Part shown: in pieces, positions 32,558 to 60,555 of the stretch
Layout: every line of letters starts with the position of its first letter
Numbering within the stretch: the first letter of the stretch is position 1
Source: Paenibacillus durus ATCC 35681
Lineage (GTDB): Bacteria > Bacillota > Bacilli > Paenibacillales > Paenibacillaceae
NCBI RefSeq assembly: GCF_000993825.1
Contig: NZ_CP011114.1
Coordinates: 1,860,001 to 1,924,000, forward strand
Reading direction: 5' to 3'
DNA: 64,000 nucleotides
Program-made: the position numbers and the translations under genes
Notes under the pieces: model-generated
Database searches by the model: none
What the model was told of the DNA's origin: nothing
Seen by the model: the letters and a program-made list of their open reading frames with translations, nothing else

Positions 32558-32586
32558 TTGACAGCGCGGGAAATCTTCTCTATAAT
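32558..32586 (+). promoter_or_regulatory. Consensus sigma-A promoter of the nitrogenase-like operon leader
   Basis: TTGACA (32558-32563) and TATAAT (32581-32586) are both perfect consensus hexamers with a 17-base spacer. Transcription would start near 32593, giving a leader of over 300 bases before the cysteine synthase-like gene, interrupted by a terminator. Confidence 0.85.
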
Positions 32587-32650
32587 CCACATTATCCATT
32601 AATTCACATTGAAATAATATGATTTAGCAATTAGCTGACCGGACCCCCGG

Positions 32651-32698
32651 AAGCTGAGCCTCCTAATGTATTTGGAGCGCTTGGCTTCCTTTTTTTAT
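32651..32698 (+). terminator. Leader terminator upstream of the nitrogenase-like operon
   Basis: GGAAGC and GCTTCC close a stem whose inner part pairs GAGC/GCTT and CTCC/GGAG, followed by seven T. It lies between the consensus promoter and the first gene, so it would stop most transcripts. Either it is an attenuator or the genes use a second promoter near the Fnr-like site. Confidence 0.75.
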
Positions 32699-32707
32699 CC
32701 GCCGGAT

Positions 32708-32723
32708 TGTGATTATTATCACA
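32708..32723. promoter_or_regulatory. Fnr/Crp-type palindrome upstream of the nitrogenase-like operon
   Basis: TGTGATTATTATCACA fits TGTGA-N6-TCACA exactly, the site recognised by Bacillus Fnr and other Crp-family regulators. A TATACT at 32741-32746 could be the -10 of an activated promoter whose start (about 32753) would place the palindrome near -37.5. The 6-base spacing separates it from GlnR/TnrA boxes, which need 7. Confidence 0.6.
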
Positions 32724-32914
32724 TATATTGCTGCTTTATTTATACTCGTATGCCAACCAGTTCACTGGAGGCTTGATCTTGACCATTCATGGCGGGGACA
32801 AGTCTCTTTTTTAGATTAAAGAGGGATTCGGCAACTTCATCGAAAAGACTCCAATAGGAGTTTTTCTCATAACCTGCATCTTCTGCAGTTCAAATTGAAA
32901 TGGAGGAACAAGGT

Positions 32915-33871
32915 ATGACAAGAATCGCTAGTAAACTGACGGACCTTATTGGCAACACTCCGCTATTGGAGCTTAAGGCCTTCAACGAAGAGAAAAATCT
33001 GGGTGCGCCGGTAATAGCAAAGCTGGAATACTTCAATCCGGCAGGAAGCGTAAAGGACCGGATCGGTTATGCGATGATCAAGGATGCGGAGGATCAGGGC
33101 CTGATCGGTCCTGGGACTGTTCTAATAGAGCCTACAAGCGGTAATACCGGAATTGCGCTTGCTTTTGTAGCTGCGGCCCGCGGATACCGGCTGATCTTGA
33201 CGATGCCTGACACGATGAGCATAGAGCGCCGCAATCTGCTGAAGGCGCTGGGCGCTGAGCTGGTGCTGACTCCTGGCGCGGAGGGTATCAAGGGTTCTGT
33301 CCGCAAGGCGGAAGCGCTGGCGGCGGTTACCCCGAATTCGTTCATTCTGCAGCAGTTCAACAATTCGGCCAATCCTAAAATCCACCGTCAGACAACCGCC
33401 GAGGAAATCTGGCGGGATACAGACGGGAAAGTAGATATCTTCGTCAGCGGCGTCGGAACCGGGGGAACGATAACCGGAGTTGGAGAAGTTCTGAAAGAAC
33501 GGAACCCGGATGTGCAGATTGTGGCTGTGGAGCCGTTTGATTCTCCAGTTCTTTCGGGCGGAAATCCCGGTCCGCATAAAATCCAGGGTCTTGGCGCCGG
33601 ATTCGTTCCGCTCATTCTGAACCGGGAAATCATCGACGAGGTGTACAAGGTACGGAACGAAGAAGCACTGGAAACGGCGCGGGAATTGGCGAGCACGGAA
33701 GGGCTGCTGGTTGGCATCTCCTCGGGCGCAGCCGTCTTTGCAGCCTCTCAGCTGGCTAAACGAAAAGAGAATAGAGGCAAAAATATTGTCGTGCTGCTGC
33801 CGGATACCGGCGAACGCTACTTATCCACCGTATTGTTTCAGGAACCGGCGCAAACAGGAGGTTTATCATGA
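32915..33871 (+). CDS. cysK: Cysteine synthase (O-acetylserine sulfhydrylase)-like, first gene of nitrogenase-like operon
   Basis: A 318-residue PLP enzyme of the cysteine synthase family. The PLP lysine is in [11 protein letters not shown] (about residue 47), the substrate loop is [12 protein letters not shown], the PLP phosphate loop [10 protein letters not shown], and SSGAAV lies near residue 270. It joins sulfide to O-acetylserine or a related acceptor. The ATG at 32915 is chosen because GGAGGA is 7 bases upstream; an earlier in-frame ATG at 32900 overlaps that box. Its stop overlaps the NifK-like start (ATGA), so sulfide handling is coupled to the nitrogenase-like subunits. That suggests it captures sulfide released by them. 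Confidence 0.9.
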
Positions 33872-35208
33872 GCAAAGTAATTGAAAGACCGCGTTATGTA
33901 TGCGCCCTTGGCGGTGCGATCGGCACTATCCAGTCCCTGCCCCGGGCGATTCCGATTCTTCATTCTTCCTCGGGCTGCGGCGGGAATCTGGCGGGCGCCC
34001 TAAGCGGAGCTTCCGGGTATAACGGCGGCAATTATTGCGGCGGGCAGGCGCTCCCAAGCTCGAACGTATCCGAGCGGGACATTGTGTTCGGCGGCGAAGG
34101 ACGGCTGTACGAACAAATCGAGAATACCCTGAAGGTAATGGACGGGGATCTGTATTTTGTAGTCACGGGCTGCATGGTTGAAATGATCGGCGACAATGTT
34201 CATGCGGTAACCAAACGCTTCAAGGGCGGAGAATTACCGGTACTGGCGGCGGAAACGGTCAGCTTCAAAGGAAACTCCTATTACGGTTATGAGCTGGTTC
34301 TTGAGACTTTATTCCGCGATTTTGTCGAAAAGACTGAGGAAAAAGACGCCAAGACGGTCAACTTGTGGGGCGTTGTTCCGATGCAGGACGTGTTCTGGAA
34401 AGGCAATCTCGGTGTGCTGAAAAATTTGCTTAAGAAGCTGGGCTTCGAGGCCAATACGTTCTTCGGCCAAGGCGAGACTTTGGACAACCTGAAAAATGCC
34501 GCCAAAGCAAGCCTCAACATCGTGGTGTCGGACGCATACGGGATCGAAGCGGCCAAAGTATTCGAAGAAGTACACGGTGTTCCCTATCTGACGGTTCAAT
34601 TGCCGGTTGGCGATCACGGCACTTCGCGTTTCCTTCGTACAGTGGGCAAGGCTCTCGGCGTCGATGACATTAAGATCGAGAGATTGATCCAGGAAGAAAG
34701 AAAGGCGTACTATCCTTACCTGGAACGTCTGGCCGATGTGTACAATGACCTCGATTTCCAGCGTTATGCCACCGTGGTTGGCGATCCTAATTACACGCAG
34801 GCGCTGACGCGGTTTCTTGCCGACGATCTGGGCTGGCTGCCGGAACTGGTTGTTATTACCGACATATTGGCGGAGGAACAGAAGGAACGGGTTCTTGCCA
34901 CGTTCAGCGATTATGAATCCGGGCTGCGCCCGGAAATTGTATTCGATGAGGATGCCTCAAGTGTCGGCGGATACATCAACCGTCACTGGCCGCAGAACCA
35001 GGGGCAGAAATATTATAAAGGGTTTGCGCCCGGCGTTATTCTGGGAAGCGTCATGGAACGCGATACGGCGGAGCAATTCAAAGTACCGCTTCTGCCGGTC
35101 ACGTATCCCATCTCCAACCGTGTAGTGCTGAACCGGGCCTACGCCGGATATACGGGCGGGCTTACTCTAGCCGAGGATGTGCTGAGTCTGGTTGTCGCTC
35201 ATCGTTAA
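33868..35208 (+). CDS. Nitrogenase component 1-like subunit, NifK/NifN type
   Basis: A 446-residue member of the oxidoreductase/nitrogenase component 1 family. Cysteines at positions 12 (VCALGG), 37 (SSGCGGN) and 102 ([12 protein letters not shown]) match the three P-cluster ligands of NifK (Cys70, Cys95, Cys153), with an extra Cys57 in NYCGG. The spacing of the N-terminal part is that of NifK/NifN, but the protein is shorter and lacks the long NifK N-terminus. It should pair with the NifD-like protein encoded next and take electrons from the NifH-like ATPase. The gene overlaps cysK by four bases. Not a classical nitrogenase subunit. Confidence 0.88.
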
Positions 35209-35250
35209 AAGGTATCTTTTTTACATCATACATTTAGGAGGTTTGCGAAA

Positions 35251-36789
35251 GTGGATTATATCAAACATAAAGTACCGCCGGTGCGTGAAGATCGCCTGAT
35301 GGCTTGCCAAGCCTATGGAGGAACTTGCGGTGATCTGTCCAAAGATTCCAAGAAAGGCTGCCTTTATGCCAGCAAGCGCACCTTCTCCCAGACCCAAGGC
35401 TGCCAGCTTAACCTAAGTCTTGGCATGATCAGCTCGATGCGCGACGCGGTTATGGTCATTCACAGTCCGATAGGCTGCGGCGGCAATCTGATCCAGAACG
35501 CCGGGATTAATAAAGTATTTCAGAAGCTGCGTCAGGAATCGGCGATTGGCTTACGCTGGATTAACACGAATCTCAGCGAAGTGGATGTAATCAGCGGAGG
35601 CGAAGCCAAGCTGCGTCAGGCCGTGCTCAAAGCCGAGCGGGAATTCCGTCCGAGCGCCATTCTTGTATTTAACAGCTGCGTGCCGGCCTTGATCGGCGAT
35701 GATATTGACGGTATCCTGGATGATCTGCAGAAGCAGGTATCGGCCAAGATCGTCCCTATTCACTGCGAAGGCTTCAAGACCAAAATTCAGGCAACCGCCT
35801 ATGATTCCGTCTATCACGGTCTGATCCGCAACCTTGTCGGCGAAGACAAAGATACGAAACCGGCGGTCGTTCGCACACCGGAGGAGGAAGCCGAACACCA
35901 GGCTATAATCAGCAAGACGGTTAATCTGCTCAATGTCGGCTCGATGAGCCGCATAGATGAGGAGGAATTGGTTCGCCTGCTCAAGGCGCTTGATCTCAAT
36001 GTACGGATTTTGCCTTCTTATTCGCATCCCGATGATTTTGTCTATGCCCATGAAGCGGCTCTTAATGTGAGCATCTGCGCAACGCATGATGACTATTTCG
36101 TCGAGCATTTCCAGCAATTGTACGGTATCCCTTATGTGCTGCGGACGATTCCAATCGGCATCGCCAATACGAACAAATGGCTGCGCGATATCGCTTCCTT
36201 CTTCGGAATCGAAGAACAGGCCGAGAAGCTGATTGCCGCGGAGACGGCGGAGCTTAAGCAAGCGATTGAACCGTTTAAAGCTGAGTTCAAAGGCAAGACG
36301 GCGTTTCTTACCGGCGGTGAGGTTCGGATATTGACTACAGCAGAGCTGCTGCATAATCTCGGGTTTGAGATCCTGGGTCTGCGGGGATATCATTTCGACA
36401 AATACGGCGAGATTCTTCTGGATGAATATATGGAGGATGTTCCGAATTCGGAAAAAGCGATCTTTAATATCGGTTCGGGCCAAGTGTTCGAGCAGGCCAA
36501 TCTGCTCAGCAAAATCACCCCCGACTTATTCGTCGGCCATATCGGAGTTAACGGCTCCGCAGCCAAGCAGGGATACCCGATCTTCCCGCTATTTGGACAA
36601 AGTGACGATTACCTGGGATACAAGGGCGTATATGAAGTAGCTGAACGGGTCAGCCGCATTTTGAAAAATCCTTCTTTTAACAAAAATCTTGGCAGCAATA
36701 CGAGACTGCCTTACCGGGATAGCTGGTACGAGCAGGACCCGTTCACGTATATTGACGATTCGGCTAGTATAGCCGCCCAAATTGGATAA
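35251..36789 (+). CDS. Nitrogenase component 1-like subunit, NifD type
   Basis: A 512-residue component 1-like protein. P-cluster-type cysteines stand at 51 (TQGCQLN), 76 (SPIGCGGN) and 143 (NSCVPALIGDD). Cys276 in LNVSICATHDDYF aligns with the FeMo-cofactor ligand Cys275 of NifD. The other cofactor ligand, His442, has no match (DDYLGYKG), and NifD His195 is replaced by a Tyr-containing segment after CEGF. The N-terminus adds cysteines 19, 26 and 37. These features point to a nitrogenase-like reductase with a different cofactor or substrate. GTG start with TTAGGAGGT box; 42 bases after the NifK-like gene. Confidence 0.88.
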   Translation: MDYIKHKVPPVREDRLMACQAYGGTCGDLSKDSKKGCLYASKRTFSQTQGCQLNLSLGMISSMRDAVMVIHSPIGCGGNLIQNAGINKVFQKLRQESAIGLRWINTNLSEVDVISGGEAKLRQAVLKAEREFRPSAILVFNSCVPALIGDDIDGILDDLQKQVSAKIVPIHCEGFKTKIQATAYDSVYHGLIRNLVGEDKDTKPAVVRTPEEEAEHQAIISKTVNLLNVGSMSRIDEEELVRLLKALDLNVRILPSYSHPDDFVYAHEAALNVSICATHDDYFVEHFQQLYGIPYVLRTIPIGIANTNKWLRDIASFFGIEEQAEKLIAAETAELKQAIEPFKAEFKGKTAFLTGGEVRILTTAELLHNLGFEILGLRGYHFDKYGEILLDEYMEDVPNSEKAIFNIGSGQVFEQANLLSKITPDLFVGHIGVNGSAAKQGYPIFPLFGQSDDYLGYKGVYEVAERVSRILKNPSFNKNLGSNTRLPYRDSWYEQDPFTYIDDSASIAAQIG

Positions 36790-36807
36790 CAGAGAGGAGA
36801 ATGGGAA

Positions 36808-37680
36808 GTGGCCACTGAAGCGAAAATTAAGGTGAGCGGGGTTACCCGCAGATATTCGATCCGGCTGAATAAAGATGAGGAGAAGAAGCAGTTTACCGCG
36901 TTGCAGGACGTGGATCTGGAAGTACGACCCGGTGAATTCTTGACCATCGTGGGACCCAGCGGCTGCGGAAAATCAACCCTGCTGGATCTTATAGCCGGGC
37001 TTGCAACGCCGACCGAAGGCGAACTGTATATTGATGGCAAAAAAATTACCGGCCCCGCTCTGGATCGGGGAATCGTTATGCAGGGCTACGCCTTATTTCC
37101 TTGGCGGACGGTTCGCCGCAATGTCGAGTTTGGTCTTGAAATTAAGAAGGTTCCGAAAAAAGACCGGAAAGCCATCAGCGACCGGTTTCTGGAGCTTGTC
37201 GGGTTAAGCAATTATGCGGACCGTTACCCGTATGAACTGTCGGGCGGGATGAAACAGCGGGTAGCTATTGCCCGGGCTCTGGCCTATGATCCTGAAGTGC
37301 TGCTTATGGACGAGCCGTTTGCGGCGGTGGATGCCCAGACCCGCGAGACGCTGCAGGATGAACTGCTGCGGATCTGGGAGCAGACCGGAAAAACGATTAT
37401 TTTTGTTACCCACAGTATCGATGAAGCTGTCGCTCTTGCCGATCGGGTCGTGGTGATGTCTCCGAATCCCGGCAAGGTTCGCGAAATTGTTCCCGTTTCT
37501 CTGCCTCGTCCGAGGAGTGTAGGGGATGTCCAGTCCACCGCAGATTTCAGCTGGATTCGGCATCGGGTATGGGAGCTGCTGCAAGGCGAGACGGCCGCGG
37601 CCAAACCGCCAGCCCAGCCGGCCGCAGCCAAAGCGCCGCTTGAGCTTGCCGAACAGCTATCCTCATCGGCGGCGTTATGA
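36808..37680 (+). CDS. ABC transporter ATPase, nitrate/sulfonate/taurine class
   Basis: A 290-residue ATPase with Walker A GPSGCGKST (about 49-57), signature LSGGMKQRVAIARAL, Walker B LLMDEPF and the switch His in VTHSIDEA. MQGYALFPWRTV is typical of the SsuB/TauB/NrtD class. It would power uptake of an oxyanion or organosulfur compound, but no permease or binding protein is encoded nearby. GTG start with AGAGAGGAGA box, 18 bases after the NifD-like stop, so it is firmly inside the operon. An Ala/Pro-rich tail extends the C-terminus. The link with CysK suggests a sulfur compound. Confidence 0.9.
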   Translation: MATEAKIKVSGVTRRYSIRLNKDEEKKQFTALQDVDLEVRPGEFLTIVGPSGCGKSTLLDLIAGLATPTEGELYIDGKKITGPALDRGIVMQGYALFPWRTVRRNVEFGLEIKKVPKKDRKAISDRFLELVGLSNYADRYPYELSGGMKQRVAIARALAYDPEVLLMDEPFAAVDAQTRETLQDELLRIWEQTGKTIIFVTHSIDEAVALADRVVVMSPNPGKVREIVPVSLPRPRSVGDVQSTADFSWIRHRVWELLQGETAAAKPPAQPAAAKAPLELAEQLSSSAAL

Positions 37681-37759
37681 TTCTGCCAAGGGGATAACCG
37701 TTAGACGTTGTCCGTATACCAATGTTAAAATGCGTATAACAGCGAAGGAGTGCTTTTTA

Positions 37760-38638
37760 ATGGCTAAAAAAATAAAACAAATCGCAATCTACGGCAAAGG
37801 GGGGATAGGCAAGTCAACGACAACTTCCAACATTAGCGCGGCTCTGTCTGTGGCTGGCTACAAGGTAATGCAGTTCGGCTGCGATCCAAAGAGTGATTCG
37901 ACCAACACACTGCGCGGCGGCGAATATATTCCCACTGTGCTAGATACGTTAAGGGATAAGCAGATTGTGAGAGCGCATGACGTTATTTTTGAAGGCTTCA
38001 ATGGAATTTACTGCGTGGAAGCGGGCGGACCGGCTCCGGGTGTCGGCTGCGCGGGAAGAGGGATCATTACCTCCGTCTCTCTGCTGAAGCAGCAGAAAGT
38101 CTTTGAAGAGCTTGATCTGGACTATGTCATTTATGATGTCCTTGGGGACGTAGTCTGCGGGGGATTTGCCGTTCCTGTACGGGAAGGCATTGCCGAGCAT
38201 GTATTTACGGTTACCTCCGCCGATTTCATGGCGCTTTATGCGGCTAACAACCTTTTTAAAGGGATTCATAAATACTCTACCGAGGGCGGCGCCTTGCTTG
38301 GCGGGGTTATTGCCAACTCGATCAACGCTCCTTACGCCAAGGAGATCGTTGATGATTTCGTTGCCCGTACGCATACGCAGGTGATGGAGTATGTTCCGCG
38401 TTCGGTATCCGTGACGCAGGCTGAGCTGCAAGGGAAGACGACCATTGAAGCGGACCCTAACTCCAAACAGGCGCAGATCTATAAATCGCTGGCGCAGAAA
38501 ATCGTGGACCATACCGAGTCTAAAGTTCCGGTTCCTCTGGAAACGAGCGAACTCCGGGAGTGGGCTTCCAATTGGGGCAAACAGCTGGTGGAATTGGAAG
38601 CCGGTGTGTTATCTCCAGCGGCGGCAGGGAATTTGTAA
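37760..38638 (+). CDS. NifH-like nitrogenase reductase (component 2)
   Basis: A 292-residue Fe protein homologue: P-loop YGKGGIGKSTT at the N-terminus, the 4Fe-4S cysteines in GVGCAGRG (about residue 97) and DVVCGGFAVP (about residue 132), and switch residues DPKSDST. It would hydrolyse ATP and pass electrons to the two component 1-like subunits. An in-frame GTG at 37526 exists, but the ATG at 37760 has AGCGAAGGAG 9 bases upstream and gives the standard NifH N-terminus. It is the last gene of the operon, ended by a terminator at 38649-38679. No NifH-associated maturation genes are nearby. Confidence 0.93.
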   Translation: MAKKIKQIAIYGKGGIGKSTTTSNISAALSVAGYKVMQFGCDPKSDSTNTLRGGEYIPTVLDTLRDKQIVRAHDVIFEGFNGIYCVEAGGPAPGVGCAGRGIITSVSLLKQQKVFEELDLDYVIYDVLGDVVCGGFAVPVREGIAEHVFTVTSADFMALYAANNLFKGIHKYSTEGGALLGGVIANSINAPYAKEIVDDFVARTHTQVMEYVPRSVSVTQAELQGKTTIEADPNSKQAQIYKSLAQKIVDHTESKVPVPLETSELREWASNWGKQLVELEAGVLSPAAAGNL

Positions 38639-57989: not shown

Positions 57990-58087
57990 GATACAAAGAC
58001 GTATCTAAGAAAAAGCGGCAATGGCGCCTGCTTGCATGTTTGGTTTGAGGGATGCTTTCTCTTGTGCCGGCGTGAAGCGGGCTTTTT
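57990..58087 (+). promoter_or_regulatory. ANTAR-responsive antitermination leader of nirB
   Basis: Hairpin P1 is GATAC-AAAGAC-GTATC (57990-58005). Hairpin P2 is AAGCGGC-AATGGC-GCCTGCTT (58013-58033, one bulged T). Both have six-base loops with A at position 1 and G at position 4, the ANTAR consensus. The 3' arm of P2 (GCCTGCTT, 58026-58033) also pairs with AAGCGGGC (58075-58082), which is followed by TTTTT: a terminator. P2 and the terminator are mutually exclusive, so protein-stabilised P2 would let transcription into nirB. Confidence 0.8.
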
Positions 58088-58125
58088 GTGTTTCCTGTGT
58101 TTTCCATCGAGAGGAGAGAGATAAA

Positions 58126-60555
58126 TTGACATTATCCCGTAAAAAACTGGTGCTCGTAGGCAATGGCATGGCAGGTGTACGCGCAATTGAACATCTGCTG
58201 AAACTGGCTCCCGATGCGTATGAAATTACGATTTTCGGCGCCGAGCCGCATCCGAACTACAACCGGATTATGCTTTCCTCCGTTCTTGCTGGGGGAACTG
58301 ATCTGTCCGAAATCGTAATTAACGATTATGAGTGGTACCGCAGCCATAATATTACCTTATATACAGGCCACAAGATCGAGAGTATCGATACCGTGAATAA
58401 TAAGGTGCGTTCCGACCTCGGGGTTGAGACTGTGTATGATGAACTGATCCTGGCCACCGGCTCCGATCCGTTCATGCTTCCTCTTCCGGGCGCGGATAAA
58501 GAAGGCGTTATCGCTTTCCGCGATATCAAGGACTGCCAGATCATGATGGAAACCTCCAAAACGTATAAAAAAGCTCTTGTCATCGGCGGGGGACTGCTTG
58601 GACTGGAAGCGGCACGCGGATTGCTGCATCTGGGGATGGAAGTATCCGTCGTGCACATCCATCACTATATCATGGAAAGACAGCTTGACCAGGAAGCGGC
58701 GGTTATGCTGCAAAGAGAGCTGGAAGCTCAAGGCATGAAATTTCTGCTAAGTAAGCAGTCGGAGGCCATTCTTGGCAAAAAGCGGGTCAAAAGCCTGCTC
58801 TTCGCCGACGGCAGTTCAGCAGAAGCCGATTTGATCGTGATGGCGGTCGGAATCCGGCCAAATACCGCGCTTGCGCAAAAAAGCGGCATTGCCGTAGGTC
58901 GCGGCATCGTCGTTAATGATTATATGGAAACTAATATTCCGGGTGTCTACGCCATCGGGGAATGCGCGGAGCATCGGGGGATCGCTTACGGTCTTGTCGC
59001 CCCGCTGTATGAGCAGGGGGCTGTTCTCGCCAAACGGCTGGCGGACGTCCAGGGGCAGGGCTACGAAGGCTCTGTAACCTCCACGAAGCTGAAAGTGTCA
59101 GGCGTGGATGTCTTCTCCGCAGGACAGTATGATGAACCTGCCGGGTCGCGTGCGCTTCGCTACCAGGATGAGATCGGCGGAGTCTATAAGAAACTAGTTA
59201 TCAGCGAGGACAAGCTGATCGGCGCGGTGCTGTTCGGCGACACGGCCGACGGCGCGCAGCTCTTTTCCCTGATCAAGAGCGGCGAATCGATCCAGGGCAA
59301 AGAAAGATCTCTGCTGCTCGGGCTCCCGGACGACGCACTGAAAGCTTCTCCGTCCGCCCGGCTGGAGGCGATGGCGGATGATGAAATCATCTGCGGCTGC
59401 AACGGCGTGTCCAAGGGGGCGATTGCGGAAGCCATTACTGTCGGCGGCTGCACAAGCGTAGGGCAAATTAAGGCATGCACCAAAGCGTCGGCATCGTGCG
59501 GAGGCTGCAAGCCGCTGGTGGAAGGACTGCTGGAGCTGTATGCGGGCGATGCGGCGGTCAAGGTCAAGGAAGGCATCTGCGGCTGTACGACGCTTGGGCG
59601 CGACGAAATCGTAGCCGAGATCAAACGAATGGAGCTCAAGACGGTCAAGGAAGTTATGAATGTGCTGGAATGGAGCACTGAGGAAGGCTGTTCGAAATGC
59701 CGCCCTTCCCTGAACTATTATCTCGGTATGCTGTGGCCGGAAGAATATGTGGACGAGAAAGAATCACGGATTACGAACGAACGCTATCACGCCAATATTC
59801 AGAAGGACGGCACCTTTTCCGTCGTTCCCCGGATATACGGCGGCGTAACTTCCCCGGGCGAGCTGAAAAAGATTGCCGAGGTCGCCGAGAAGTTCGACGT
59901 TCCGATGGTGAAGTTTACTGGGGGACAAAGGCTGGATCTTCTAGGCGTCAAGAAAGAAGATCTTCCAAAAATTTGGGAAGAGCTCGACATGCCTTCAGGC
60001 CATGCCTACGGCAAAACGCTGCGCACGGTCAAGACCTGCGTCGGATCAACGTTCTGCCGGTTCGGCACCCAGGATTCTATCGCCATGGGCATCCGGCTGG
60101 AGAAAGAGTTCGAGCGGCTGAATACACCGGCCAAGGTTAAGCTTGCCGTGTCCGGTTGTCCCCGCAACTGTGCGGAAGCAACGATCAAGGATTTCGGCGT
60201 TGTCGCAATTGATGGCGGCTGGGAGCTTCATGTCGGCGGCAACGGCGGCGTGCATGTTCGGGCAACGGATCTGCTGTGCGTCGTGAAGACGGAGGACGAG
60301 GTTGTCGAATGGGCGAGCGCGTTCCTTCAATACTATCGCGAAAATGCCAGCTGGAACGAGCGAACCTCCAATTGGGTGGAGCGGGTTGGACTTGACAGTA
60401 TCAAGGCGGCGCTTGATAACCGAGAAGACAGGTTGGCGCTGGGGCAAAGAATCCAGACGGCGCTCAGCGTGACCACTGACCCGTGGAAGCAAATCGTGGC
60501 GGAAAGGGAGCTCCGCAAAAATTTCGAGCCGATCTCTCCAATTGAGACGGCATAA
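58126..60555 (+). CDS. nirB: Assimilatory nitrite reductase [NAD(P)H], large subunit
   Basis: An 809-residue cytoplasmic enzyme that reduces nitrite to ammonium. The N-terminal FAD/NAD(P)H domain has VLVGNGMAGVRAIEHL, ATGSDP and VIGGGLLGLEAARGL; BFD-like cysteine motifs follow (ICGCNGVSKG, SCGGCKPL); the C-terminal siroheme/4Fe-4S half has CVGSTFCRFG and SGCPRNCAEATIKDFG. TTG 58126 is the likely start, since GAGGAGAG lies about 8 bases upstream and it gives the normal NirB N-terminus. Earlier in-frame starts run through the leader terminator. Regulated by GlnR/TnrA-type box and the ANTAR leader. Confidence 0.95.
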   Translation: MTLSRKKLVLVGNGMAGVRAIEHLLKLAPDAYEITIFGAEPHPNYNRIMLSSVLAGGTDLSEIVINDYEWYRSHNITLYTGHKIESIDTVNNKVRSDLGVETVYDELILATGSDPFMLPLPGADKEGVIAFRDIKDCQIMMETSKTYKKALVIGGGLLGLEAARGLLHLGMEVSVVHIHHYIMERQLDQEAAVMLQRELEAQGMKFLLSKQSEAILGKKRVKSLLFADGSSAEADLIVMAVGIRPNTALAQKSGIAVGRGIVVNDYMETNIPGVYAIGECAEHRGIAYGLVAPLYEQGAVLAKRLADVQGQGYEGSVTSTKLKVSGVDVFSAGQYDEPAGSRALRYQDEIGGVYKKLVISEDKLIGAVLFGDTADGAQLFSLIKSGESIQGKERSLLLGLPDDALKASPSARLEAMADDEIICGCNGVSKGAIAEAITVGGCTSVGQIKACTKASASCGGCKPLVEGLLELYAGDAAVKVKEGICGCTTLGRDEIVAEIKRMELKTVKEVMNVLEWSTEEGCSKCRPSLNYYLGMLWPEEYVDEKESRITNERYHANIQKDGTFSVVPRIYGGVTSPGELKKIAEVAEKFDVPMVKFTGGQRLDLLGVKKEDLPKIWEELDMPSGHAYGKTLRTVKTCVGSTFCRFGTQDSIAMGIRLEKEFERLNTPAKVKLAVSGCPRNCAEATIKDFGVVAIDGGWELHVGGNGGVHVRATDLLCVVKTEDEVVEWASAFLQYYRENASWNERTSNWVERVGLDSIKAALDNREDRLALGQRIQTALSVTTDPWKQIVAERELRKNFEPISPIETA

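Follow-up and report, generated by a model that had tools for sequence, protein, structure and literature searches.

We describe here an operon of the soil bacterium Paenibacillus durus ATCC 35681 in which a cysteine synthase gene (cysK) is followed by genes for a NifK-like protein, a NifD-like protein, a NitT/TauT-family ATP-binding cassette (ABC) transporter ATPase and a NifH-like protein. The operon lies on the + strand at 32915-38638 of the window, a stretch of 64,000 bases that covers bases 1860001-1924000 of the 5.58 Mb single-contig genome; unprefixed positions are those of the window, and L and G mark loci and genomes of our comparison set. Judged by family models, alignments, trees and gene neighbourhoods, the operon probably supports importer-fed, ATP-driven reductive cleavage of carbon-sulfur (C-S) bonds, with the sulfur going to CysK. 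Its enzyme would work like methylthio-alkane reductase (MAR; MarHDK) but appears not to be MAR, as the possible MAR hallmark is broken in it and it falls outside the MAR clade.

Architecture and conservation of the operon

The operon comprises the following features.

32915..33871, + strand: cysK, cysteine synthase (O-acetylserine sulfhydrylase); TIGR01139, 474 bits against a cut-off of 351
33868..35208, + strand: NifK-like beta subunit; PF00148, 246.1 bits; best Protein Data Bank (PDB) match MarK at 276.7 bits, next 84.1
35251..36789, + strand: NifD-like alpha subunit, GTG start; PF00148, 240.5 bits; best PDB match MarD
36808..37680, + strand: NitT/TauT-family ABC transporter ATPase, GTG start; ntrCD 257, SaoA 255 and taurine 251 bits, all under the cut-offs of these models
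37760..38638, + strand: NifH-like Fe protein, MarH type; 77% identity over 281 residues to MarH (9fmg_D), 499 bits
38647..38676, + strand: intrinsic terminator 3' of the NifH-like gene; 12-pair stem with 8 G-C pairs

Open reading frames (ORFs) and family models place the five packed genes where a sequence-only reading of this DNA had seen them, with cysK and the NifK-like gene overlapping by 4 bases. Behind GGAGGA, cysK starts at the ATG at 32915; another in-frame ATG lies at 32900, and the aligned leaders of relatives keep the start at 32915. The same reading had reported nifB, nifE and nifN to be absent from the window, and indeed no nifB match and no further PF00148 match were found there.

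The operon is not a chance arrangement, because NifD-like orthologues at 82-100% identity occur in 12 of the 100 Paenibacillus genomes searched (own genome included). Among Bacillota, a NifD-like match at E<=1e-55 is present in 16 of 398 genomes, again with the own genome. Across Paenibacillus the five-gene order is kept in part: ORF calls give it in full in five of nine relatives refetched with their flanks (L161, L162, L163, L165, L169). In L164 the NifH-like gene, left uncalled under a longer antisense ORF, lies at the right place; in L168 longer antisense ORFs hid both the ATPase and the NifH-like gene, of which only the latter was then placed correctly. The NifH-like gene is located elsewhere in L166 and in L167, and L167 is without cysK.

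An enzyme related to MAR in a clade of its own

All three nitrogenase-like proteins find MAR as their best match among all solved structures: the NifH-like protein MarH (499 bits; next PDB chain 286), the NifD-like protein MarD (224 bits; next non-MAR chain 114) and the NifK-like protein MarK (277 bits; next 84). Window D is 34% identical to MarD and window K 37% to MarK. The NifH-like protein passes the nifH cut-off (428 against 394 bits), and the other two stay under every nif, vnf, anf, bch and chl family cut-off listed. For the NifD-like protein, nifD gives 142.7 bits against a cut-off of 653.55 and the best listed model is nifE (175.5 against 505.1); for the NifK-like protein, nifK gives 93.3 bits against 427.3 and the best listed model is BchB (112.6 against 490.35). 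By comparison, the NifD and VnfD of the same genome exceed their family cut-offs. The earlier description of the proteins as a nitrogenase-like reductase is thus borne out: they are not Nif, Vnf or Anf, and the C-S-cleaving MAR is the closest system.

Three trees of D proteins each leave window D outside the MarD clade. The quick tree (98 rows reduced to 83 by dropping those outside 430-560 amino acids and L rows more than 88% identical to a kept row) has three starred group IV clades, namely Isr-like (11 rows), MAR (16 rows, including Rhodospirillum rubrum MarD and three pairs of the P. durus genome) and the window clade (51 rows). A 106-row tree, which includes one mis-called antisense frame that we ignored (L040_x, branch 8.23), gives the window clade a support of 100, with the MAR clade down to 81; two sub-clades of the window clade shift their border between these two trees. 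In a careful 29-row tree a 13-row window clade stands at 100/99, and the approximately unbiased (AU) test rejects window D joining eight MAR rows (p 2e-48, a lenient test in that window D was held without its kin). A K tree agrees on the window clade; the 17-row MAR-type K set is defined by identity under 43% and includes L110, a window-clade member. NifD, NifK, NifE, NifN, VnfD, VnfK-like and NifE/NifN-like rows, as well as the pair at L011:7860-10729, served as outgroups or comparison rows only. The window proteins belong to a family close to MAR but separate from it, and the window clade spans Bacillota, Geobacteraceae, Spirochaetota and Planctomycetota.

How much of the metal-binding apparatus of MAR does the window pair keep? 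The P-cluster of MAR is bound by MarD C66, C91 and C158 and MarK C32, C56 and C121, and its [Fe8S9C] cluster by C270 and H429, with Arg428-His429 as a possible hallmark (PMC12552129). The Fe-protein and P-cluster cysteines that had been noticed earlier all have counterparts in MAR: both cysteines of the NifH-like protein align to those of MarH, C51, C76 and C143 of the NifD-like protein align with MarD C66, C91 and C158, and C12, C37 and C102 of the NifK-like protein with MarK C32, C56 and C121. NifD-like C276 and loop-I H430 are the counterparts of C270 and H429. Throughout the window clade the C270 equivalent is Cys (51/51 D rows) and the H429 equivalent His (50/51, the remaining letter being X); in K, C32 and C56 are found in 73 of 74 rows (one gap) and C121 in 73 of 74 (one X). 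Neither His375 nor Asp377 varies within the window and MAR clades (His375 in 51/51 and 16/16 rows). Around these residues the two clades differ. Arg428 is deleted in 51/51 window-clade rows, window D included, and present in 16/16 MAR-clade rows; Phe199 is likewise found in 16/16 MAR-clade rows and replaced by Tyr in 51/51 window-clade rows; Trp195, which together with His429 is present in all 16 MAR-clade rows, is Gln in window D. From the cluster Cys onward all 51 window-clade rows read C-x-T-H-D-D-Y, and MAR rows C-x-T-L. The cluster ligands are therefore kept, in a remodelled pocket.

With its P-cluster and L-cluster ligands and a MarH-type Fe protein, the window enzyme fits the [Fe8S9C]-bearing class of group IV C-S reductases. 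Earlier accounts state that FeMoco ligands are not conserved in the nif-like D proteins of Paenibacillus (Xie 2014; Li 2014). By alignment the window pair appears to depart from that statement, with the Cys275 equivalent conserved and a His in the MAR-type loop.

Is the operon then MAR proper, converting methyl thioethers to methanethiol and a hydrocarbon and feeding methionine? Its best structural matches, the 77% identity of its Fe protein to MarH and the invariant His375 and Asp377 would agree with such a role. However, the same genome carries, about 40 kb upstream of the operon, a pair that is 72%/66% identical to R. rubrum MarDK (L012:8005-10922); this pair has no NifH gene beside it and is, by sequence, a true MAR orthologue in Paenibacillus. 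Set beside it, the low identity of window D and K, their position outside the MAR clade, the altered Arg428, Phe199 and Trp195, and an operon that carries cysK and no O-acetylhomoserine-sulfhydrylase-type gene make MAR proper an unlikely assignment.

A sulfonate reductase similar to isethionate reductase (Isr), releasing sulfite, seems less probable still. The NitT/TauT-type importer would be compatible with it, and Isr too is a group IV enzyme encoded near such transporters (PMC11423573), but the published IsrD has one P-cluster Cys and no Cys275, whereas window D keeps all three and the Cys275 equivalent. In the D trees window D stands apart from the Isr-like rows, which there are relatives of L016. 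It is the L016 pair of the same genome, with an Fe protein of its own, that fits the published Isr pattern: in the operon at L016:8593-13573, NifH-like, NifD-like and NifK-like genes stand directly behind metK and an RNA element (R1, see below), and the D protein lacks Cys275 and two P-cluster cysteines.

An unusual nitrogenase (group IV-A, Nfa-like) would be in keeping with the P- and [Fe8S9C]-type ligands, and Endomicrobium proavitum, which has no nif-like genes other than NfaDK, is reported to take up 15N2 (according to PMC9147875). We regard this as the least probable explanation. Besides the failed nif, vnf and anf models, Leu455 of window D occupies the column of NifD His442 (motif GPYHGFDG in the own NifD), and none of the 51 window-clade D rows has His there. 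The genome is already equipped with a Mo-nif set (L015: NifD, NifK, NifE, NifN) and a vnf-type set (L011: VnfD over its cut-off, a VnfK-like protein at 857 against 874 bits, and a NifE/NifN-like pair). As proxies for Nfa, the pair of genome G047 and the Heliophilum pair adjoining a NifH-like gene group with the L014 pair of P. durus, not with the window pair. In the literature on Paenibacillus nif-like gene sets (Xie 2014; Li 2014), nif-like D genes from P. sabinae failed to complement a nifD mutant, and the expression data of Li (2014) on nif-like genes, which may or may not include an orthologue of the window gene, speak against nitrogen fixation; the conditions considered there do not include sulfur limitation.

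Several catalytic pairs and one MarH-type Fe protein

The P. durus genome holds 20 PF00148 genes in ten pairs, together with one short weak match. Five of the pairs belong to group IV, namely the window pair and those of L012, L013, L014 and L016. Inside the vnf-type cluster lies another pair (L011:7860-10729) that no NCBIfam model matches at E<=1e-60; its position is beside group IV, on a very long branch.

NifH-like genes number two besides four conventional ones, and three nifB genes are over the cut-off. Genes reading as metN/metI, an NlpA-type binding protein and a weak UroD/MtaA-like gene (L018:17-6978) shortly precede an extra nifB-nifH pair.

A NifH of the MarH type (84% or more identical to that of the window) is found in 16 of the 100 Paenibacillus genomes, in one copy each, and these are the 16 genomes with window- or MAR-type D genes. 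D matches of all kinds (E<=1e-30) number three to six in twelve of these genomes and one in the other four; a seventeenth genome with D matches, G077, has the L016 type only. That exactly one gene for a MarH-type Fe protein accompanies these window- or MAR-type D genes, of which a genome has between one and about four, was unexpected. Because of this single gene in the presence of several D genes, the economical reading is that one MarH-type Fe protein serves several catalytic pairs, and similar sharing has been proposed for Heliophilum (PMC9147875).

Genomic company of the operon

Neighbouring genes were compared at 79 named relative loci, taken from the best 80 of 557 matches and split by identity into 27 of the window's kind (six of them Paenibacillus; K before D in 26) and 49 others, with L054, L075 and L077, in which no K was called, left out of the neighbour counts. 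The counts are lower bounds, as many loci end at contig ends and long antisense ORFs hid genes, and each neighbour-cluster label rests on one representative. Conserved neighbours are cysK (17/27 window-kind loci and 23/49 others), a NitT/TauT ATPase, permease (15/27 and 23/49) and binding protein (12/27 and 30/49), and NifB-like (11/27 and 13/49), NifX-like, MtaA/UroD-like methyltransferase, corrinoid and RamA-like activator genes; NifH-like genes adjoin in 8/27 and 18/49. The tie to cysteine synthase, which the 4-base overlap had suggested, and that to an organosulfur-type importer recur in the same gene company across several phyla.

The operon is longer in some relatives. In some Paenibacillus relatives it runs on into permease, binding protein and permease genes, and in P. 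rhizophilus into a second cysK, a permease, a binding protein and a permease. The P. durus genome has three cassettes of a binding protein with permease(s), at 1240, 2318 and 2763 kb. No NitT/TauT-type ATPase adjoins them, as the best nearby ATPases do not exceed 36% identity, and all three cassettes carry R1 in their leaders. Binding proteins of L050 and L158 show weak matches to thiamine-precursor, taurine and SsuA-type structures.

Other genes flank some of these operons. A pyruvate-ferredoxin-oxidoreductase-like (PFOR-like) alpha-beta pair precedes the operon in L050, L165 and L169, and PFOR-like genes adjoin the L014 pair in P. durus. A BcrAD/HGD-D fusion, which resembles a double-cubane cluster protein together with its reductase, follows the operon in L050, L161-L165, L168 and L169.

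Window CysK has 57% identity to the pab-linked copy of P. durus, presumably the housekeeping one, and 68-77% to most of the copies in clusters. A CysK lineage confined to the clusters was considered and rejected, since CysKs at 63-79% identity are widespread in Bacillota.

The methyltransferase genes invite a different explanation, in which the pair acts in methyl-sulfur or methyl-selenium salvage with corrinoid S-methyltransferases, as in type I mlp clusters, for example by releasing a methylated thiol that is later demethylated. MtaA-like genes adjoin 35/49 of the other loci and 7/27 of the window's kind, corrinoid protein genes 21/49 and 7/27, and RamA-like genes 21/49 and 3/27; the same association has been reported by Kountz and Balskus (2023; PMC10418091). 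Beside the Paenibacillus operon, however, no corrinoid methyltransferase genes were found, and the L018 locus offers one weak UroD/MtaA-like gene (52 bits against a cut-off of 244). For the operon studied here we thus consider methyl salvage improbable, about as much so as MAR proper.

A tandem leader RNA

The 340 bases 5' of cysK form a leader with a consensus promoter, two copies of an RNA element (R1) and a palindrome.

32558..32586, + strand: sigma-A-type promoter P1, TTGACA-N17-TATAAT; 12/12 consensus letters
32634..32696, + strand: attenuator unit 1, antiterminator-like hairpin GCUGACCGG-NNNN-CCGGAAGC overlapping the 5' arm of a terminator; R1 model 70.3 bits
32708..32723, + strand: palindrome TGTGATTATTATCACA, Fnr/CRP-type; sole match in the window, 0.03 expected
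32718..32746, + strand: possible second promoter P2, ATCACA-N17-TATACT; 9/12 letters, and chance expects as many here
32752..32814, + strand: attenuator unit 2, homologous to unit 1; R1 model 62.9 bits, the model seed including both window units

Thirteen Paenibacillus rows from ten distinct genomes (three were fetched twice) make up the leader alignment. P1 is present in 12 of them, the thirteenth, L049, starting downstream of it, and the half-sites of the palindrome, which lies between the two RNA units, are kept in all 13. The palindrome resembles TGTGA-N6-TCACA, the site used by Fnr of B. subtilis.

Each R1 unit has two mutually exclusive folds, a hairpin of 21 bases with an internal GA/A loop and a terminator that takes up the 3' side of this hairpin. 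Over 66 aligned matches, pairing in the hairpin fold reaches 98.3%, and doubly changed cells number 34 where shuffles give 8.3; in the terminator fold, to which that alignment was fitted, pairing is 97.7%, and such cells number 165 where shuffles give 36.7. A 13-unit seed alignment, made without the model but with the structure drawn from the same rows, is 97.6% paired, with 28 doubly changed cells against 10.9. By this covariation the leader appears to be a tandem terminator/antiterminator RNA.

In the P. durus genome R1 is found at nine places (E<=0.05), two of them in the window leader. Copies in leaders of NitT/TauT or nif-like operons include:

L158:5243-5308: R1 element
L159:10058-10125: R1 element
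L160:7319-7382: R1 element
L014:12228-12291: R1 element, 5' of the L014 operon (FeMo-co-domain protein, Cys/Met-metabolism enzyme, D, K)
L016:13645-13728: R1 element, 5' of the L016 operon (metK, H, D, K)

Apart from the window leader and the L014 and L016 operons, R1 in this genome precedes transporter genes (a permease at 1239 kb, cassettes at 2321 and 2763 kb), a methyltransferase gene (1306 kb) and what remains of a nifB (2761 kb); L011, L013 and the locus of the MAR pair, L012, gave no match. The nifB-like stretch behind R1 (L160:4282-4827, - strand; G000 2760281-2760826) is fragmentary and adjoins an orphan permease/binding-protein cassette. Unexpectedly, the RNA that heads the operon is thus also found ahead of other operons of P. 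durus, both transporter and nif-like ones. Under stricter filters, R1 matches of at least 40 bits occur in 12/12 Paenibacillus genomes with window-type D and in 0/88 others. Among relative loci, 27 of the 74 searched have R1 (E<=0.001), and it leads nif-like and NitT/TauT operons in Bacillota and Geobacteraceae as well.

A known riboswitch was rejected as an explanation of the leader: the window has no Rfam 15 match at the gathering threshold, and the leader itself matches only PhrS, at E 0.14. Control by an ANTAR protein is weakened as an idea, as the sole ANTAR-domain match of the genome (57189-57812, - strand, beside 58021-60555, which reads as a nitrite reductase) has no R1 near it. R1 is unnamed in the literature on antitermination with nitrogenase (mainly ANTAR; titles and abstract starts), the one search made for it.

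Discussion

What might the operon do for the cell? From the sequences we read the genes, the Cys and His ligands, the clade, the co-occurrence and the shared leader. In the mechanism that we propose, the NifD-like and NifK-like proteins would assemble into a heterotetramer that carries P-clusters and an [Fe8S9C] cluster made by NifB; the MarH-type Fe protein would supply it with electrons, using ATP. The enzyme would reductively cleave a C-S bond in a small organosulfur compound brought in by the importer, releasing sulfide (or a small thiol), and CysK would make cysteine from this product. The operon ATPase would power a NitT/TauT importer with permeases and binding proteins from the orphan cassettes that share the leader RNA. 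The identity of the cluster, the C-S chemistry, sulfide as the product, the pairing of ATPase and cassettes, and the substrate are what we infer.

Several observations weigh against this proposal. The MtaA-like corrinoid S-methyltransferase neighbours of relatives suggest methyl-sulfur or methyl-selenium chemistry rather than simple sulfide release, and in P. durus no permease stands beside the operon ATPase. CysK of the window type is present in 115 of 398 Bacillota genomes (E<=1e-130, own included) and is common without the cluster; the evidence is therefore the operon link and not the type of protein. The earlier suggestion that CysK captures a released sulfide or thiol stays a proposal. 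The deep branching is unsure: long branches occur in all three D trees, and the 29-row tree places the window clade beside Isr-like rows with weak support (86/85). Control by oxygen through the Fnr-like site finds no backing in the expression data of Li (2014). Finally, a purely sulfur-specific RNA is at odds with weaker R1 copies before regulators without a visible sulfur role. Eighteen weaker matches were examined, of which 12 were placed; where these score 29-39 bits and the genome lacks MAR- and window-type D, the genes behind them, in other Paenibacillus, read from their protein starts as metN, SsuC/TauC-type permease, AraC, GntR and LacI.

A broader and more speculative picture, doubtful on present evidence, is that the window clade is a third class of nitrogenase-family C-S reductases, freeing sulfide at an [Fe8S9C] cluster, with several pairs (window, MAR and at least two more) on one shared Fe protein and several pairs and importers under a new family of sulfur-sensing leader RNA. 

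If the operon works as proposed above, it adds to the L-cluster enzymes a large and taxonomically broad clade that obtains the sulfur of cysteine from organosulfur compounds in the absence of oxygen. A single Paenibacillus would then offer several nitrogenase-family enzymes for direct comparison with one Fe protein, and the published statement that the nif-like D proteins of this genus are without cofactor ligands would need correction.

Comparison with known systems

The sequence-only reading is supported in outline, but not where it held the arrangement to be unlike any known system: nif-like genes associated with cysteine synthase and linked to sulfur (Dos Santos 2012), MarHDK-like genes in sulfur and mlp clusters (Kountz and Balskus 2023) and Paenibacillus sets of nif-like genes (Xie 2014; Li 2014) are already in print. 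The sulfur link of the operon is thus known and not new. A functional study of the window clade was not found in the literature searched, in partial coverage and mostly at title level.

Type I mlp clusters resemble the operon in the sulfur-gene company of their MarHDK-like genes, CysK included (PMC10418091), and its relatives in other Bacillota adjoin MtaA-like, corrinoid and RamA-like genes as well; unlike them, the Paenibacillus operon is without the methyltransferase part. With Nfa (group IV-A) of Endomicrobium proavitum and the nif-like pairs of Heliophilum (PMC9147875) it shares group IV and a MarH-type Fe protein. The Heliophilum pair beside its NifH-like gene groups elsewhere, as noted, and a second Heliophilum pair, L088:8992-10491, falls inside the window clade. 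IsrBHDK of Rhodobacter capsulatus (PMC11423573) is similar in belonging to group IV, in serving anaerobic sulfur assimilation and in its NitT/TauT-class importer, and differs in the cysteines that IsrD, by description, lacks and in the separate clade of the Isr-like rows. The closest counterpart is MarHDK of R. rubrum (PDB 9fmg, 9d9u; PMC12552129), to which the operon enzyme is alike in its Fe protein, the six P-cluster cysteines, the [Fe8S9C] Cys with the loop-I His, His375 and Asp377. It is unlike MarHDK in its D and K proteins, only 34-37% identical, in the deleted Arg428, in Tyr for Phe199, Gln for Trp195 and C-x-T-H-D-D-Y for C-x-T-L, and in an operon that carries cysK and an importer ATPase.

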